Under the pieces are notes generated by a model. The model worked only from the letters and a program-made list of their open reading frames with translations, ran no database searches and was not told where the DNA came from. This document shows, one piece after another, positions 1 through 8,469 of a DNA stretch of 64,000 bases (positions within the stretch are counted from its first letter, which is position 1; every line of letters begins with the position of its first letter). Position numbers and translations under genes: made by a program. Origin of the DNA: a virus. Location of the stretch: the IMG/VR virus record IMGVR_UViG_3300032220_000872, positions 1 to 64,000 of that record, one strand, 5' to 3'.

Positions 1-305
1 AGATACTGTCTCAGGATGGTCATTTCTGAGTTGGTGGCTTTCTGTTTGAAATTCAGTTTAAAATTAGTGTCGTTTTGTTTGTTCAATTGCGAACAAAATT
101 CAGCCAGTATGTCCAAAGCAGCATTCACTTCAGAATCCATGTCCATGGTGTTGTATTGACCATATCTCTCCACTCTGTTGGGAGATCCTGAATACACATC
201 AGGCAGATAGGAACTGTAGTTGGTCTTGGCTGGTCCTGCCAAACGTCCTGTGCGAGTGTAGATCTCGTTGTCACTTACCTGATTAAAATATCTTTTCCAG
301 CTCAT
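1..305 (-). CDS. 20: Portal vertex protein gp20, N-terminal part (runs off the window)
   Basis: The first 101 codons are present, from the ATG at 305-303; the rest lies to the left of the window. The N-terminus begins MSWKRYFNQVSDNEIYTRTG and contains RVERYGQYNTMDMDSEV followed by an AALDILAEF helix. This matches the segment of T4-like portal proteins just before the clip/stem, where a D-x-D-x-E-V/I-x-x-A-L-D-I pattern is typical. The portal forms the dodecameric ring through which DNA enters the head and to which the neck binds. The start overlaps the stop of the upstream tape-measure gene by one base (TAATG), which implies translational coupling. No ribosome binding site of its own is needed. 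The call rests on a short fragment. Confidence 0.72.
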   Translation of the reverse strand, partial: MSWKRYFNQVSDNEIYTRTGRLAGPAKTNYSSYLPDVYSGSPNRVERYGQYNTMDMDSEVNAALDILAEFCSQLNKQNDTNFKLNFKQKATNSEMTILRQY

Positions 306-2470
306 TATGTTAATTCTTCTGTGTTTTCAGCAGTTCGTTTTTGATATCTTTTGCCTGTTTGTAATTCATCTAACACTGCTCTCATAGTCATATTTAACTC
401 GTCCAGCTTGTCACTAGAACTTTTGCCAGAAGCACTGATGCTTTTTGTCATGTTGTTGTTTAATCCTGCAAAAGATTCGCTCAATCCGTTCAATGCTGTA
501 GTATAGCTGTCTATTTTGTCTTTGTCAAGAGAATCCAGTGTGGCATTGATATTTTTGGCTAATGATTCACCGCCACCACCAAACAGCTTGCCAAAACCAG
601 CAGCAATGCCGCTCACACCAAAATTGGCCATGGCGCCACTTAGGGCCATTGCTCCTGATGCAACACTTTTCAAATTCTGCCCGTCGATGGAGTTAAATTT
701 TTGCATGTCATCGGCAAATTTGCCAAATGCTCCACCCATTAACCATGCTGCTCCTGCTATGCCTGCTCCTATTAATGCAATGGCTGTGCCCAATCCTGCT
801 GCTCCTAATAACACCGCGGGATTGGCAAATGCTGTCAATCCTGATGCAAATCCTTTTAAACCAGCACCCAATCCTCCACCAGATTTACCGATGCCTTCCA
901 ATACTTTACTGCCACCACCACCACCGCCTGTTGTTGTGCCACCACCACCTGTGAAAAAATTCTTAACTCCTCCTACCATGCCGCGTCCCACTGAAATCGC
1001 TTTCAAAGCCACTCCTGCTGCTACGGCTGCTCCTGCTAACCCAATCAGCACTTTGCCAACACCTTCTGACTTGCTGATCATATTAGCTAAAGCACCAACC
1101 ACGCTGGTCAAATATGAAGCAACTGCTGTCACTCCTTCTAGGAATGGTGCAAACAAGGCAATTAAACTGTTGGTGAGTTTGGTCATTTGACTGCTGAAGT
1201 CTGCCACTGACTTGCTGCCAGTTTGAGATGCTTGCATTTGAGCTTTTTCTGCTTCAGCTCTGGCATCAGCAAATTTTCCAAATTGAGCTAACTCTGCTCC
1301 CACAGTGAGAATTTCATTGCCCATGTAACCTATCAAGGCATTGTTGGCTCCCATGGCTGCTCCTTGCTCCTTGGCTCGGATGGCTGCTCTTTGTAATGCT
1401 TGAGAAAATTCTTCTTGAGAGACAGAACCATCTCGTAATCCTCTGGCCATGTTGCCTAGATTGGAATCCACCAACAGCAAACCTTTGGCAGTGTCGCTGA
1501 TAGGAGCACCACCGGTAATCACCAATTCCTTCACAGCATCTGCAATTTGTGGGCTGGTCTTGTTGATACTGGCCAACATGCCTCCCAGTTGAGCTTGTAG
1601 CTCTGCAGGCATGCTCATCATCAAACTTCTTAAATTTCTATCTTTCTGTTGAGCTTTCAATGCTTCTGATGCTTCTTTGCGACTCATGCCAGTCACACGA
1701 GCCAATAGATCCAATTCTTGAATATAATTTTTTGTGCCTTCCACCAAGTCTTCATTGCTCATCTCTTGAGCTCTGCCTAATCCTGTTTGTATTTCAAGAT
1801 AGTCAGTCATCAGATCGTTGGTTTCGCTCATGCTCAAACCCAATCTGCTGAATGTGGGTTGTAAATCTCTTTGGATCACTCGACTCATGCTTTGGAATCT
1901 TCTCACACCTGCTATGGTGCTGCCACCCAACAGTGCAAATGTGCCTGCATTGGATTCCACTTGACCTTTGAATTCTTCCAGACTCAATCCTGCATCGATA
2001 GCAGCATATCTGGACGCAAATATACTGTCGCCAAAGTCAGCACCCACCATGCTGAGCTGTCTGAATCGCACAATCTGTAAATCCAGTTCATCCACCAATC
2101 TCTGTAAACCTTGAGCCAACAGTGCATATCCAAAACCCATCTGACTGATATAACCTGTGAGACTGGAAGTGAAATCACCAAACTTGTCTGTGCCTTTGAT
2201 GATGTTGACGCTGAAATCTTGAATGGCTTCTCTGGCTGCGTTGTGTTTGACTTTGAAGTCGTTGAATGCTTTGGTGGCACCTTTGGTTTCTTTGGTGAGT
2301 TCGCCGAGAGTTTTGGGTGCTTGTTTGCCCAAATTTTGAGCAGCAGCTCCTGCAGCAGTGCCAGCTCCACCCAGTGCTTTCACCAGCTGTTGCAGTGTGG
2401 CTTCCGTGGCAGCACCTTTCAGTATAGCACCATCCAGTTCACCGCCGCCTTCTATGCGCACTTCTGCCAT
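305..2470 (-). CDS. Probable tail tape measure protein
   Basis: 721 residues. The N-terminal third is helical and Ala/Gln-rich. Residues about 440-520 and 545-585 are strongly hydrophobic Ala/Gly/Val/Leu stretches of the kind seen in tape measure proteins, separated by a Gly-Thr hinge with runs of glycine near residue 510-525. The C-terminus is a charged helix. At about 1.5 angstrom per residue the protein would span roughly 108 nm, close to a T4-type tail. It lies next to the portal gene and divergent from a tail-assembly gene with a frameshift, which fits the usual neighbourhood of tape measures. No clear Shine-Dalgarno site precedes the ATG. A TATAAATA box on this strand (2548-2541) would drive it with a leader of about 65 nt. 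T4 gp29 is the functional counterpart, but I see no direct similarity to it. Confidence 0.6.
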   Translation of the reverse strand: MAEVRIEGGGELDGAILKGAATEATLQQLVKALGGAGTAAGAAAQNLGKQAPKTLGELTKETKGATKAFNDFKVKHNAAREAIQDFSVNIIKGTDKFGDFTSSLTGYISQMGFGYALLAQGLQRLVDELDLQIVRFRQLSMVGADFGDSIFASRYAAIDAGLSLEEFKGQVESNAGTFALLGGSTIAGVRRFQSMSRVIQRDLQPTFSRLGLSMSETNDLMTDYLEIQTGLGRAQEMSNEDLVEGTKNYIQELDLLARVTGMSRKEASEALKAQQKDRNLRSLMMSMPAELQAQLGGMLASINKTSPQIADAVKELVITGGAPISDTAKGLLLVDSNLGNMARGLRDGSVSQEEFSQALQRAAIRAKEQGAAMGANNALIGYMGNEILTVGAELAQFGKFADARAEAEKAQMQASQTGSKSVADFSSQMTKLTNSLIALFAPFLEGVTAVASYLTSVVGALANMISKSEGVGKVLIGLAGAAVAAGVALKAISVGRGMVGGVKNFFTGGGGTTTGGGGGGSKVLEGIGKSGGGLGAGLKGFASGLTAFANPAVLLGAAGLGTAIALIGAGIAGAAWLMGGAFGKFADDMQKFNSIDGQNLKSVASGAMALSGAMANFGVSGIAAGFGKLFGGGGESLAKNINATLDSLDKDKIDSYTTALNGLSESFAGLNNNMTKSISASGKSSSDKLDELNMTMRAVLDELQTGKRYQKRTAENTEELT

Positions 2471-2548: not shown

Positions 2549-2559
2549 CGGAGGTAATA

Positions 2560-3426
2560 ATGCCAGAAAATCAAGTCAAACAGGGTGCAAATCCTTTACA
2601 GAAGTATTTTAGACAGCCCAAGAATTATGTGCGATTGCCCAGCAGAGGCAAATATTACCCCGCGGGCGCTTTGGATTTACCAGTCACAGGAGAACTGCCT
2701 GTGTATGCCATGACAGCCAAGGACGAATTGACTTTTAAAACTCCAGATGCACTGATGAATGGTCAGGCCACAGTGGATGTGATACAAAGCTGTGTGCCCA
2801 ATATCAAAAATGCTTGGCTCATGCCCAGCATAGACTTGGATGCTGTGCTGATTGCCATTCGTGTTGCCACCTACGGTGAAAGCATGGATGTCAGCATCAC
2901 TGTGCCCAATACCACCATCAAGCGAGACTACAGCATGGATCTGCGCAGAGCATTGGATGATCTGATGTTGGGAAAATTTTCGGACTCGTTGATGATTGGC
3001 TCAATGAAAGTGAACATACGCCCAATCAATTACAAAGAATTCACTGACGGTGCTGTGAAAACATTTGAAGAACAAAGAATTTACAATGTGGTCAACGACA
3101 ACAAGATTGATGATCAAACCAAACTGGACATGTTTCATCAGAGTTTTAGAAAGCTCACTGACATCACAATCAGCATGGTGAGCAACAGCGTGGTCAGCAT
3201 CGAAGTGGATGGGGAAACAGTGACTGATTCCAATCACATCCGAGAATTCATTGCCAATGCAGACAAAAATTTCTATTCCGCAGTGATGGAACACGTGACC
3301 AAACAGCGTGAATCTTTCAGCATCAAACCCATTAGAGTCACCAGCACACCCGACGACATCAAAGCGGGTGCACCTGCCACTTTTGAAGTGCCTGTGACAT
3401 TTGATCAATCAAATTTTTTCGCATAA
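2560..3426 (+). CDS. 26: Baseplate hub / tail assembly chaperone, gp26-like (pre-frameshift product)
   Basis: 288 residues from ATG 2560. An in-frame ATG exists at 2527, but 2560 has a strong GGAGGT site five bases upstream and the product then begins MPENQVKQGANPLQKYFRQP, like gp26 homologues of marine T4-like phages. Near the N-terminus is the family signature R-L-P-S-R-G-K-Y-Y-P. In T4, gp26 is needed for baseplate hub assembly, probably as a chaperone. The position opposite the tape measure gene and the slippery site at its 3' end recall the lambda gpG/gpGT tail chaperone pair. The stop comes two codons after the slippery heptamer, so most ribosomes would make this shorter form. Confidence 0.68.
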   Translation: MPENQVKQGANPLQKYFRQPKNYVRLPSRGKYYPAGALDLPVTGELPVYAMTAKDELTFKTPDALMNGQATVDVIQSCVPNIKNAWLMPSIDLDAVLIAIRVATYGESMDVSITVPNTTIKRDYSMDLRRALDDLMLGKFSDSLMIGSMKVNIRPINYKEFTDGAVKTFEEQRIYNVVNDNKIDDQTKLDMFHQSFRKLTDITISMVSNSVVSIEVDGETVTDSNHIREFIANADKNFYSAVMEHVTKQRESFSIKPIRVTSTPDDIKAGAPATFEVPVTFDQSNFFA

Positions 3427-3650
3427 AAATCTTACCTCGCTCTCTGCCGGATATTCTGAAAGAAGTCCGGGACATGGAGGGTGAAACCAAAAATTTCAAG
3501 ATGGATCTGTTCAAAATGTGCTGGTACATGCGCGGCAGCATGACAGTGGAAGAGGCATTCATCACCACAGCGGAAGATCGTGAGATCATCAGTCGTATCA
3601 TCAAAGAAAACCTGGAAACTGCCAAAAAAACTGGTTTGCCATTCTTTTAA
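3405..3650 (+). CDS. 51: gp51-like hub assembly ORF, probably reached by -1 frameshift from the gp26-like gene
   Basis: The -1 frame relative to the gp26-like gene opens after a TGA at 3402-3404 and stays open to TAA at 3648-3650. From the slip point it reads RIKILPRSLPDILKEV, then an acidic segment, then KMCWYMRGSMTVEEAF and a C-terminus ending NLETAKKTGLPFF. That C-terminus resembles the small gp51-type baseplate hub assembly proteins of cyanophages. The only ATG candidates are internal (3474 first) and lack a good ribosome binding site, while protein-like sequence extends upstream of them. The likely product is a 363-residue fusion: 287 residues of the upstream protein plus 76 residues. 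The alternative is a 58-residue protein started at 3474. Confidence 0.62.
   Translation, partial: SIKFFRIKILPRSLPDILKEVRDMEGETKNFKMDLFKMCWYMRGSMTVEEAFITTAEDREIISRIIKENLETAKKTGLPFF
3414..3420 (+). promoter_or_regulatory. Programmed -1 ribosomal frameshift site U UUU UUC
   Basis: In the upstream frame the codons are AAT TTT TTC GCA TAA, so the heptamer is T TTT TTC with the correct X XXY YYZ phasing. It lies inside the 22-nt window in which both frames are open (3405-3426). A hairpin CCGGA...TCCGG (3447-3451 with 3466-3470, inner TTCT/AGAA) follows, but it begins 26 nt downstream, farther than usual stimulators. I saw no upstream Shine-Dalgarno-like stimulator. Confidence 0.65.
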
Positions 3651-3705
3651 TCGCCCAGCACGGCATCTAAAACCAAATAATATATTTTAATCACCACACT
3701 GTGAC

Positions 3706-3713
3706 ATTAAATA
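3706..3713 (+). promoter_or_regulatory. Possible late promoter box ATTAAATA
   Basis: A degenerate late box eight bases before the ATG at 3722. The same spacing and lack of a Shine-Dalgarno site are seen before the structural gene at 39291. Weak on its own. Confidence 0.35.
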
Positions 3714-3721
3714 ATCTTACG

Positions 3722-4297
3722 ATGAGAGTGTTTACACAGTCAAACGTGAATCACACCATACCGGACGGGGACATTTGGTTGCCCTGTATCACCACTGAAT
3801 CTGTGGCACATGATCCTGCTGTGGCTCAGCCACTGCTGATCACACACATCGCTGCCATACAACACTATCAACATTCACTCACAGAATTATTGAATCAACC
3901 CATACAATGTGTGGGACGTCACACAGCAGAACGCCTGCGTGACTGTGGATTCCGTCACATACGCTGCAGACTGAGAGCTGCGGATGTGATGATCAGTGGC
4001 CACACCACGTGGTTGCGTGGCTGCCACTACGCCCGAAATTTTTCACTGTATCCAGAAGTCACTGAGATTCAAACCTATCGCAGCACACTGAATCTGCACA
4101 ACATTGAAAAATTATTGCGGGAGAATCCTCACAGCATCCATGTGTACAGTGCTGCTGTGTTGCAAGCATTGGAAACTCGTGCATGGCCTCACACTGAGTT
4201 GTACACAGTGCCATCGGCACCTGCCGCCGAAAATTTATGGCGCACTGTGCATGAGTTTGATCCTAGCGATGCCCACAATCAACTGATCACACACTGA
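3722..4297 (+). CDS. HemD-like protein (uroporphyrinogen-III synthase fold), unknown role
   Basis: 191 residues from ATG 3722; a GTG at 3701 would add seven. The layout recalls uroporphyrinogen-III synthase: an early strand, then PLLITHIAAIQHY where HemD has its TS-x-x-A helix. Next come QCVGRHTAERLRDCGF (HemD: x-V-G-x-x-T-A-x-x-L-x-x-x-G-F), a TWLRGCHYARNF strand-turn in the place of the L-R-G loop, VTEIQTYRS, and a final domain with IHVYSAAVLQALE. HemD closes hydroxymethylbilane to uroporphyrinogen III in tetrapyrrole synthesis. No other haem gene is nearby, and the gene sits between tail-assembly genes and tiny ORFs, so the fold may be borrowed for another task. The resemblance is by eye only. 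Confidence 0.42.
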   Translation: MRVFTQSNVNHTIPDGDIWLPCITTESVAHDPAVAQPLLITHIAAIQHYQHSLTELLNQPIQCVGRHTAERLRDCGFRHIRCRLRAADVMISGHTTWLRGCHYARNFSLYPEVTEIQTYRSTLNLHNIEKLLRENPHSIHVYSAAVLQALETRAWPHTELYTVPSAPAAENLWRTVHEFDPSDAHNQLITH

Positions 4298-4874: not shown

Positions 4875-5309
4875 CTATGATTTTGCCTTGAGCCTTTTTA
4901 ATTCTTCTCTCAGTAAATTGCTGCCGCCTATGCGTACATTGATGATGCCATTGTAGTATTCATCTGATTCCAACACTCCACGTTCAAACTGTTCCAAAGC
5001 CTCCAAATAGCCCATCACGCCTCGGCTGCGACAAATGTACAGTATTTCTCGGGTGAATTGATCCTGGCCCAAACGCTGCACATCCATCATCAACACATCG
5101 TTGCTGCCCCAATAGTCTCTCCAGTCACTCTCCACCAGACTGCGACGTCTGTTGGTGCGACCTTTCAAAGGTGGACGTGATTTTTTGAACTGTGCCAATT
5201 TTTTGCCCACGTACTTGCGACCTGTTTGAAGATTGGTGATGAGATACACAAATCCCACTGTGCCTTCCGGCAGAGAATCTATGGCTTGACCTTGATACAT
5301 CCATGGCAT
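4875..5309 (-). CDS. GIY-YIG-like nuclease domain protein
   Basis: 144 residues. The N-terminal half has GFVYLITNLQTGRKYVGKK (residues 19-37), which fits the GIY-YIG core (x-V-Y-x-I-x-N-x-x-x-G-x-x-Y-V-G-x). A central SDWRDYWGSN follows, then an EYYNGIINVRIGG segment near the C-terminus supplying the conserved asparagine. GIY-YIG domains cut DNA and occur in homing and repair nucleases. Similar short proteins are common in T4-like marine phages beside recombination genes, so a cellular-type nuclease is as likely as a homing enzyme. The start is uncertain: MPWMYQGQ offers ATGs at 5309 and 5300, neither with a clear Shine-Dalgarno site. It is the last gene of the early minus-strand set. Confidence 0.55.
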   Translation of the reverse strand: MPWMYQGQAIDSLPEGTVGFVYLITNLQTGRKYVGKKLAQFKKSRPPLKGRTNRRRSLVESDWRDYWGSNDVLMMDVQRLGQDQFTREILYICRSRGVMGYLEALEQFERGVLESDEYYNGIINVRIGGSNLLREELKRLKAKS

Positions 5310-5683: not shown

Positions 5684-7462
5684 CTAGATTTCATGCACTT
5701 CCATAGCATTGCTGTAGGAAGTGAATCCATTCTCTTTGATCACTTTCAATGTGTTGTTCACTCTACCCATCAATTCATCTTTGTGACTGATCAAATATAT
5801 GCTCTTGCCACGCTCTCTGCTCATGCGTTTCAATATGGCCAAGGATGATTCCACACCTGCTGTGTCCAAACCAGAATCTATCAATTCATCTATGAACAAC
5901 AGGTTGATATCCTGATACAAACTCTCCCAAACATCGCGGAAAGCAAAGCTCAATCCTAATATCAATCTATTACGCTCACCTCTGCTGAGATTGTCAAAGT
6001 CCAAATCCTGACCCAATAGAGTGATTTCCACACTCAAATCGTTTTTGAATGTGACTGTGTGTGGCAAGCCCAGTGCTGTGAGATAGTGTGTTAATCTGTT
6101 GTTTAAGAATGCCAAGTTTTGATCTATGATCTTCTTTCTTATGAAACTGTCTTTGTTGGTCAACAGTTTTAATAAAAATTCTTGATGATCTTTGAATGTT
6201 TGCAAACGATTCACTTCGCTCCAATCCAATTCTTGCAGTGCTTCTGTGCTCAATTCCGTGATTTGATCCACATAAGGATTCTGTTCTGCTTTTTTGTTTT
6301 TTAAAGTGCTTTTGTAAGTTTCCAAATACTGTCTGTGTTCATAGGCTTCTTTGACGGTGTTGTAAAATGTTTCAGGACGCTGTGCTTGTGTGCCCAGCAG
6401 TTTGATTGCTTCTTCTATCACAGCAATTTCATCCACAATGCTCATGCTGTAATTCACAGCATCACCATATTCTTCTTCCAGTTTGCGTTGTATTTCACAA
6501 AATTTATCATTGTGTAATTCTTGACCACAAGCATAACAAGTGGCTTTGTCATGCAGTTTGTCCAGATCCTGTCCCACTTTGTTCACAGTTTTGTCTGATT
6601 GCAACAGTGTCATTTCCAAACTGTTCTTGTCTTTTTGTAATTGTTTCAGTTCATTGCTGAATTTGGTCCATTCTTCCAACTGTTGATGTGCTTCCAGTTC
6701 TTGTTCAATATTAACTGCTTCCAACTCTGTGATGGACTTTTTAAGTTTTTCAATGTCTAAATTCTTTTGTGTGTTCCAAATTTTTTCTTTGTTGCTCAAT
6801 GAATTGATGGTTTCTTTGATCTTCTCATTGCTCATTTTGAGACCTTCCAAACGAGCATTTTCCATGGCCATGTCTTCTTTGCTGATTCTAATTTTGTCTT
6901 TGAGCAATTCTGCCTTCTCGCTCAGCAGTGTTATGCCCAGCAATTGTTCAATGATGTCTTTTTGTTCATTGGCACTCATGCTTAAAAACGGTTCAGTGTA
7001 AGTGTTCAATGCCAATATGTGTTTGAACATGGAATGTGACAATCCCAACATGTGATTGATAGCAGCCTGAGTCATACGACTGTCTCCTTGACTCTCATCT
7101 GTGATCTCTTGTTCAGAGTCATTGATAAAGTATCTCAAAGTATTAGGGCGTCTTCCCCTCTCAATACGATATTTCACACCATCTTTTTCAAAAGTTAATG
7201 TGACCAACATGTTTTTGTTGTTGGTTTTATTGACCAAATTTTCTCTGCGTATTTTTGTCAGTGCTTCTCCAAACAAACCATAACTCAATGCATTGATCAG
7301 TGTGGTTTTACCAGTGCCGTTTCTGCTGCCAGCATCATCTCCACCTTGATCCAAATTTTCTCCCAACACCAATGTGAGTCTTTGATTGTCAAAATCCACT
7401 CCTTGAGTTTGATTGCCCACACTCATGAAATTTTTAACTGTTAGACTCTTGATTTTTATCAT
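5684..7462 (-). CDS. 46: Recombination endonuclease subunit gp46 (Rad50/SbcC-like ATPase)
   Basis: 592 residues. It has a Walker A motif GSRNGTGKTT at 45-54, a long coiled-coil region from about 180 to 400, and a zinc-hook-like CYAC at 309-312. The ABC signature LSRGERNRL is near 492, followed by Walker B LLFIDEL and the D-loop SGLD near 520-535, and a histidine switch ISHKDE near 558. With gp47 it forms the Mre11-Rad50-type complex that resects DNA ends for recombination-dependent replication and helps degrade host DNA. The start overlaps the end of gp47 by four bases (ATGA), so the two are coupled. The family is usually about 560 residues, so this one is complete. Confidence 0.93.
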   Translation of the reverse strand: MIKIKSLTVKNFMSVGNQTQGVDFDNQRLTLVLGENLDQGGDDAGSRNGTGKTTLINALSYGLFGEALTKIRRENLVNKTNNKNMLVTLTFEKDGVKYRIERGRRPNTLRYFINDSEQEITDESQGDSRMTQAAINHMLGLSHSMFKHILALNTYTEPFLSMSANEQKDIIEQLLGITLLSEKAELLKDKIRISKEDMAMENARLEGLKMSNEKIKETINSLSNKEKIWNTQKNLDIEKLKKSITELEAVNIEQELEAHQQLEEWTKFSNELKQLQKDKNSLEMTLLQSDKTVNKVGQDLDKLHDKATCYACGQELHNDKFCEIQRKLEEEYGDAVNYSMSIVDEIAVIEEAIKLLGTQAQRPETFYNTVKEAYEHRQYLETYKSTLKNKKAEQNPYVDQITELSTEALQELDWSEVNRLQTFKDHQEFLLKLLTNKDSFIRKKIIDQNLAFLNNRLTHYLTALGLPHTVTFKNDLSVEITLLGQDLDFDNLSRGERNRLILGLSFAFRDVWESLYQDINLLFIDELIDSGLDTAGVESSLAILKRMSRERGKSIYLISHKDELMGRVNNTLKVIKENGFTSYSNAMEVHEI

Positions 7463-8469
7463 TGTAGATCTCTGTAAATTTCCAGCAGTGTGTTTTTGTT
7501 GTAACTGTCTGATTCTATGGCATTGATCTCTTTGCTAACTATTTCATCCACAGATTCAAAACGTGTGATATCCAATGTACTGGTTAATTCATCATCTTTT
7601 TTGCCTGGTATCAGCACAATTTCTCTACAGTTGTAATCTTTTATGAAAGTTTCTTTGATAAAACTGGCTTCTTCATAGCTGATATCTATGTCCAGAGTGA
7701 CTTGCAAATGCATTTTGGGTTTGATAATGTTTTTGGCATCATTTAATAATTCACCAAGATTAACTTTTAGATATCTAGGACAATTGTACCAATTGATGTA
7801 TCTGGGAGTGCCACCATGTTCCATAATCATCATGCCTCGTTGATCATCATTCACATCAGCATAGTTGTGCGGCATGGGATTGCCTATGTAATGTATATTT
7901 TTTGCTGTTTGACGTTTGTGGAAGTGTCCTGTGAACACATATTCTTGATTCACAAAGTCTCCAGTCTGTATCAATCCAGTGTCTGGCATTTCTATCATAG
8001 CATTCATTAAGAAGTGAGGCAATTCAAAATGACCAAACATGTATCTACTTTTGACTTTTTTGATCTGTTTGTATTCATCTCCCACCAACCAAGGCACCAA
8101 AGTCACATCATCTATGGTGGTGGTTTCTGTGATCACAGTGATACCCGGAATAAATCTAGCAAACTCCACTGAATGAATGTCTCGTTTATCTTTGTAATAC
8201 AAATCGTGATTGCCAGGAAAGAAATAGAATTTTTCAAATGCTTTGCCCAATTTTTCCAAACATTTGATGGAAACATCCATGGTCATCAAATTTAATGAAT
8301 TTCTATTGTGATGCCAGTCACCACAGAATATGCCTGTTTCGCAATTGTTTTGTTTGGCTTGTTCTATGAACCAATCCACGAATTCTTCACAATCTTGATT
8401 GTGAATCACGCTGTTGCTCTTCAAGCCAAAATGTATGTCAGTAAAGACTGCTGCTTTTTTAAACATCAA
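7459..8469 (-). CDS. 47: Recombination endonuclease subunit gp47 (Mre11/SbcD-like)
   Basis: 336 residues, full length for gp47. Metallophosphoesterase motifs appear in order: FTDIHFG (residues 9-15, D-x-H), GDWHHNR (50-56), GNHD (86-89) and, near 179, GHFHKRQ. These bind two metal ions for the 3'-5' exonuclease and endonuclease activity of the gp46/47 complex. Two adjacent ATGs open the frame; either could be used. The gene is preceded by a TTGACT-N17-TACAAT promoter and followed with overlap by gp46, so it heads an early operon with gp46 and the small basic protein. Confidence 0.93.
   Translation of the reverse strand: MMFKKAAVFTDIHFGLKSNSVIHNQDCEEFVDWFIEQAKQNNCETGIFCGDWHHNRNSLNLMTMDVSIKCLEKLGKAFEKFYFFPGNHDLYYKDKRDIHSVEFARFIPGITVITETTTIDDVTLVPWLVGDEYKQIKKVKSRYMFGHFELPHFLMNAMIEMPDTGLIQTGDFVNQEYVFTGHFHKRQTAKNIHYIGNPMPHNYADVNDDQRGMMIMEHGGTPRYINWYNCPRYLKVNLGELLNDAKNIIKPKMHLQVTLDIDISYEEASFIKETFIKDYNCREIVLIPGKKDDELTSTLDITRFESVDEIVSKEINAIESDSYNKNTLLEIYRDLQ

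Follow-up and report, generated by a model that had tools for sequence, protein, structure and literature searches.

The 64,000-nucleotide stretch analysed here (the window; positions 1 to 64,000 of the IMG/VR virus record IMGVR_UViG_3300032220_000872) carries a gene related to gene 26 of T4, and comparison of this gene with its relatives strongly supports a conserved -1 frameshift site near its end, where slippage is predicted to extend the gp26-like protein with a gp51-like C-terminus. We consider it very likely that this is one gene with two products made by -1 frameshifting, that both products are tail assembly chaperones, and that in T4 the gene was split into two by duplication. The slip site, the coding extension, its identity with the C-terminus of gp51 (in the branch of cyanophages, KVP40 and Aeh1) and the gene tree all come from comparison. 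Frameshifted tail assembly chaperones are known; what is new is the family, its breadth and the two-gene split in T4. The initial annotation of the window knew of no description of such a frameshift at gp26/gp51, and our literature search agreed, finding no published report, although it did not include subscription papers and preprints and novelty is therefore not certain.

The slippery site and the -1 frame

The gp26-like gene starts with the ATG at 2560 (Table 1), and its 0-frame protein matches PF12322 (T4_baseplate; E 3e-10, 40.6 bits against a curated cut-off of 24.5) and phrog_150 (baseplate hub; E 2e-12). No second PF12322 match occurs in the 83,837-base record from which the window was taken, a record that is possibly a fragment. 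Directly after a TGA at 3402-3404 the -1 frame opens at 3405; it runs to 3650 (81 amino acids) and overlaps the 0-frame by 22 nucleotides. Within this overlap the 0-frame codons AAT TTT TTC GCA TAA set the heptamer T TTT TTC in the canonical X XXY YYZ phase, on which the Phe codons in the P-site and A-site would slip back one base, and the predicted fused product would have 287 + 76 = 363 residues with the junction SNFF-RIK. The first ATG of the -1 frame, at 3474, would open a reading frame of only 58 amino acids and has no Shine-Dalgarno match. The initial annotation had reported these frame boundaries, an in-phase heptamer within the overlap and a poor start for the downstream frame; on re-reading, its coordinates proved exact, and the heptamer and the lack of a good start were seen as described.

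The heptamer is kept across a very diverse set of genes. In scans of IMG/VR, which reached relatives whose gp26 is down to 15-20% identical to that of the window, T TTT TTC encodes the last FF in phase in 179/179 relatives with a complete junction, and these represent 156/156 distinct sequences. With cultured phages included, the gp26 sequences fall into 66 clusters at 70%, 19 at 50% and 12 at 40% identity. The 0-frame stop follows the slip site by one codon in 171/179 junctions and by four codons in the remaining 8/179, and the -1 frame stays open past the slip point for 57-76 residues (56-77 when cultured phages are counted). In the rest of these genes TTT TTC accounts for 14/137 FF cases and Phe is encoded by TTT and TTC in a ratio of 1439:475, from which the chance of TTT TTC with a T-ending codon before it can be put at roughly 6% per independent lineage; at that rate, it is out of the question that 19 lineages share it by chance. 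The same heptamer is present in 21 cultured phages: Phosso, CBB, Atu_ph07, PAC2 (PA5oct-like), Munch, 121Q, BF, Vibrio 2.275.O, RaK2, SCTP-2, XaC1, GAP32, Hallingskeid, Kaldavass, S-RIM50, ACG-2014f, Aeh1, Moby, KVP40-like TCU-VP04, P-HM1 and Rhizobium IC12. At the slip place XacN1 (L033, 4268-4528), Stenotrophomonas CM1 (L038, after 3501) and Ochrobactrum OC (L210, 1687-1896) have T TTT TTT. The alignment of relatives suggested in the initial annotation thus found the slippery run conserved, and the opposite arrangement, in which the second gene has its own ATG and ribosome binding site and the slippery run is missing, was met in none of the PF12322 genes with a next-frame extension; Kuttervirus PM10, taken up below, stands aside, lacking both the heptamer and an obvious start.

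If the -1 frame is translated from the slip point, its codons should be constrained ahead of any start of its own, and this is what was observed. Window-type extensions are all 76 amino acids long and align without gaps. Among sequence pairs that are at most 35% divergent, codons 3-17, which lie between the 0-frame stop and the first conserved Met, changed 683, 405 and 1152 times at positions 1, 2 and 3, and synonymous changes numbered 557 in the -1 frame, compared with 164 and 73 in the two alternative frames. The -1 frame is therefore under purifying selection ahead of any usable start. The protein-like character noticed earlier from the slip point onward agrees with both tests, and codons 3-17, within the segment 3420-3473 proposed for checking in relatives, show the constraint. 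Most ribosomes would stop at 3426 and yield the short gp26-like protein, while for a minority a -1 slip on T TTT TTC would carry translation through to 3650 and add a gp51-like C-terminal domain, giving the long form; the ribosomal nature of the slip and its efficiency are what we infer.

Sequences 3' of the heptamer in the relatives point to a stimulatory hairpin. The mean folding z is lowest right 3' of the heptamer (-1.25 at offset 0, in segments of 40 nucleotides) and lies mostly between -0.4 and 0.2 at other offsets. In window-type relatives a stem pairs +6..+16 with +27..+37 (68.5% of cells paired, vs 32-48% in slid registers), and in the cyanophage group +6..+16 pairs with +26..+36 (66% vs 28-47%), so that in the two groups the hairpin begins 5 nucleotides past the heptamer. 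Pairing as high as this occurred in 0/500 shuffles; the cyanophage stems include the exchanges GGCTCA/TGAGTC, GGCGCA/TGCGTC and GGCACA/TGTGTC, and single hairpins reach z values of -2.4 to -4.2 (L091, -4.2; L132, -3.1). Since stem pairs changed on both sides showed no excess over shuffles, support for the hairpin comes from the paired cells and the covariation score. A stimulatory hairpin is thus supported for the group of relatives, not for the window itself, where a candidate at 3447-3470 is probably not a stimulator (z -0.9, not above shuffles, and missing in the closest relative, L001). Shine-Dalgarno-like runs occur upstream of the heptamer in 74/139 relatives. Cyanophage loci (e.g. L041) carry a GAGGG or GAAGG run about 10-14 nucleotides 5' of the heptamer, in conserved Glu-Gly codons, and it is possible that this run acts as an internal Shine-Dalgarno stimulator as in dnaX.

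The same observations bear on whether ribosomes join the two frames at all. Most database records annotate the downstream open reading frame as its own coding sequence, none of the annotated records examined joins both frames, and in 22/139 relatives a start codon with a Shine-Dalgarno-like run does lie within the first 20 codons, as might be expected of a separate small gene expressed by re-initiation or coupling at a start after the gp26 stop. We find this very improbable, as the heptamer is invariant while Phe codons elsewhere vary, the residues upstream of usable starts are kept as protein (FFRxxLL), and T4 gp51 has the same sequence fused in frame. Start positions are not conserved either: 33/139 relatives have no ATG within the first 20 codons, the position of the ATG varies in general, and 21/139 have none of ATG, GTG or TTG early on; a cyanophage gp51 with its own start was rejected on this ground. 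The run of six U could alternatively be slipped upon by RNA polymerase instead of the ribosome, and the homopolymer, together with three phages in which it comprises seven T, would suit such transcriptional slippage. Against it, the run otherwise never varies from six T and a C and keeps the X XXY YYZ phase throughout, in many relatives it is followed by a conserved hairpin at the distance usual for ribosomal frameshifting, and six U is less than the runs known to slip efficiently in bacteria, so that we give this explanation little credence. T runs are prone to single-base errors, and yet an assembly or sequencing error within one gene has practically no chance of accounting for the frame break: 179 contigs share the arrangement, and the finished genomes of cultured phages that also have it refute such an error.

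Relation to gp26 and gp51 of T4

T4 gp26 (208 amino acids) and gp51 (249 amino acids) are both full-profile matches to PF12322 (E 9e-64 and 4e-52), so that the shared domain is homologous, and in gp51 the match spans residues 1-201 and is followed by a C-terminal tail. This tail and the end of the domain match phrog_634 (E 1e-23), as do the -1 extensions of S-RIM50 (7e-30), ACG-2014f (2e-32), KVP40 (1e-21) and Aeh1 (2e-14); when these four extensions were joined to gp26, phrog_150 was covered nearly end to end. By hhalign the extension falls on gp51 residues 199-244, starting from the slip point (P 5e-4, probability 33%). In the branch of cyanophages, KVP40 and Aeh1, the extension thus appears, by homology, to be the C-terminus of gp51, and the tail of T4 gp51 to correspond to the -1 extension. 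The small open reading frames called 'gp51' or 'baseplate hub assembly catalyst' in cyanophages and KVP40 are this same -1 frame, behind the same heptamer; they are annotated as stand-alone truncated proteins, with a long open reading frame, in the position of the tape measure gene, directly downstream. Cyanophage and vibriophage gp51 were reported to be missing the N-terminal ~200 residues, and Aeh1 to have no gp51 (Sullivan et al. 2010, PMC3037559). Both the truncation and the apparent absence are explained if the gene is frameshifted.

For the window, the name gp51-like, given in the initial annotation, holds in the cyanophage sense, where the -1 frame bears that name and matches T4 gp51 in its C-terminal part; direct comparison of the window extension with T4 gp51 gave no match. 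A profile-profile comparison with the cyanophage extensions (A8 vs A7) aligned it from FFR on (E 8e-5, probability 60%). No family was found for it in Pfam or PHROGs, as also for its relative L145, and phrog_634 has no match in the 83.8-kb record.

The slip site is absent in the phages that have a separate full-length gp51, namely T4, 44RR and leB. The C-terminus of T4 gp26 (...KEFFELL) falls at the slip place, where the codons GAG TTC TTT GAG form no heptamer. T4 thus has two genes, divergent neighbours without a slip site, in contrast to the window with its one gene and slip site. Genes 26 and 51 are divergent in 44RR as well, and in Pseudotevenvirus leB (L209, 1163-2456) they stand in tandem, 51-26, on one strand with an overlap of 8 nucleotides, as after a tandem duplication. 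In a maximum-likelihood tree, gp26 and gp51 of T4, 44RR and leB form one clade (94/93) that adjoins the frameshifted Aeh1 and KVP40-like genes (67/82, weak) and lies apart from all remaining frameshifted genes; the root of this tree is not fixed, and its deep supports are moderate. This pattern is the one expected if a single frameshifted gene was duplicated and split in the T4/44RR/leB branch. Hence gp26 and gp51 of T4 most likely go back to a single ancestral frameshifted gene that was duplicated and split, gp26 corresponding to its short product and gp51 to its long one. Extending this to the whole T4 superfamily, we think it likely that the G/GT type of frameshift is general there (cyanophages, KVP40/Aeh1 and many jumbo phages) and that T4 is the exception, its branch having duplicated and split the gene.

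Gene neighbourhood and a proposed tail assembly chaperone function

Table 1. Features at the gp26-like gene of the window and its neighbours
Position	Strand	Feature	Basis
305..2470	-	candidate tape measure protein, 721 amino acids, divergent from gp26	weak similarity to RaK2, Phosso neighbours
2550..2554	+	ribosome binding site GGAGG of the gp26-like gene	direct sequence reading
2560..3426	+	gp26-like gene, 0-frame short product, 288 amino acids, PF12322 / phrog_150	profile matches, AlphaFold model
3414..3420	+	slippery heptamer T TTT TTC in 0-phase	sequence; invariant in 179/179 IMG/VR junctions
3420..3650	+	-1 frame extension, 76 amino acids (RIKILPRSL...GLPFF)	purifying selection; homology to cyanophage gp51 reading frames
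3424..3426	+	0-frame stop TAA, one codon past the slip site	sequence; equal spacing in 171/179 relatives
3447..3470	+	weak candidate hairpin (CCGGAUAUUC...GAAGUCCGG), 26 nucleotides 3' of the heptamer	folding, comparison
3701..4297	+	198-amino-acid reading frame after the frameshifted gene	weak HemD (uroporphyrinogen-III synthase) matches, Pfam E 0.0095, NCBIfam E 0.001; no PDB match
4875..5309	-	SegE-type GIY-YIG homing endonuclease, just before the gp46-like gene	PF19835, E 1e-31
5684..8469	-	gp46/gp47-like recombination nuclease pair	phrog_77; weak SbcD match

The position of the gene and the fold of its product suggest that the short and long gp26-like forms may be tail assembly chaperones working like lambda gpG/gpGT. 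As in lambda, one gene would give a short form and, through a -1 slip shortly before its first frame ends, a minor long form, and this gene adjoins a tape measure gene, here a candidate. In 47/47 cyanophage-type loci gp26, the extension and a long open reading frame follow each other on one strand, an order that parallels lambda G-T-H, and in 45/47 window-type loci a long divergent open reading frame lies beside gp26. The initial annotation had placed the tape measure gene opposite: a long divergent reading frame is indeed there, and its identity is that of a candidate, weakly supported by similarity to the corresponding frames of RaK2 and Phosso, the former of which is on record as resembling a tape measure protein. 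The order tape measure candidate, gp26 and, further on, gp46 is common to the window and RaK2-like jumbo phages, and the window shares the order of gp26 and gp46 with Atu_ph07.

An AlphaFold model of the gp26-like protein, built from an alignment, had a mean predicted local distance difference test score of 84 (38 for a single-sequence prediction). It matched models of T4-like gp26 in BFVD (E 7e-22), followed by the siphophage 'tail assembly chaperone' proteins of K1H and of Kitkat, short and long (probability 0.98-0.99). VIA-align aligned the HK97 tail assembly chaperone 2ob9 over 101/107 residues (Z 6.3, root-mean-square deviation 5.0), and in the rows above it mostly one or two long helices were matched. 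The likeness to lambda gpG/gpGT proposed in the initial annotation is supported by position, by the short/long design and by a moderate fold match, whereas the heptamer is a different one, the short form is longer than in lambda (about 232-308 amino acids), and no sequence similarity to lambda gpG/gpGT or the HK97 chaperone was detected. By analogy with lambda, from which we infer the chaperone mechanism, the domain common to both forms would coat and chaperone the tape measure protein, while the one present only in the minor long form would bring in the tail tube.

Several points weigh against this overall picture. At the junction, the fused product is a prediction, the conserved hairpin is only poorly formed in the window and an upstream Shine-Dalgarno-like element was not found there. 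Kuttervirus PM10 (L042, 2441-3405) has a gp26-like gene and extension without the canonical heptamer; its junction codons read GAG ATT TTC ATT TAA, its unannotated -1 frame has no obvious start, and that frame matches the gp51 tail (phrog_634, E 0.003; also phrog_9633). The candidate tape measure gene of the window is divergent and upstream, while that of lambda lies downstream. As to the fold, the siphophage chaperone matches reach only E 0.05-0.08, the Z of 6.3 to HK97 2ob9 is under 8 and so below a clear match, and a Foldseek search of the PDB gave no significant match. Some genetic reports, lastly, make T4 gp26 a component of the hub (cited in PMC3004832). This last point, with the family names (baseplate hub), would favour a real frameshift whose products, gp26 and the long form, are structural proteins of the baseplate hub and not chaperones of the tape measure protein. 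We hold that to be unlikely, because T4 gp51 is needed yet reported to be missing from the particle, the same review lists gp26 as a chaperone of hub assembly (PMC3004832), and because of the position by the tape measure candidate and the chaperone-like fold.

On the reading that the forms are tail assembly chaperones, T4 would have swapped a frameshift for a duplication, with gp26 as the short and gp51 as the long form, encoded by separate genes; this would be a case of a recoding event replaced by gene duplication. The long product is absent from the annotated records examined, and many marine and jumbo myoviruses have the gene. Read as two versions, short and long, of a single tail assembly chaperone, T4 gp26 and gp51 would gain a testable role, and, if this is true, the separate expression of two genes in the T4 branch would set the ratio that slippage sets elsewhere.
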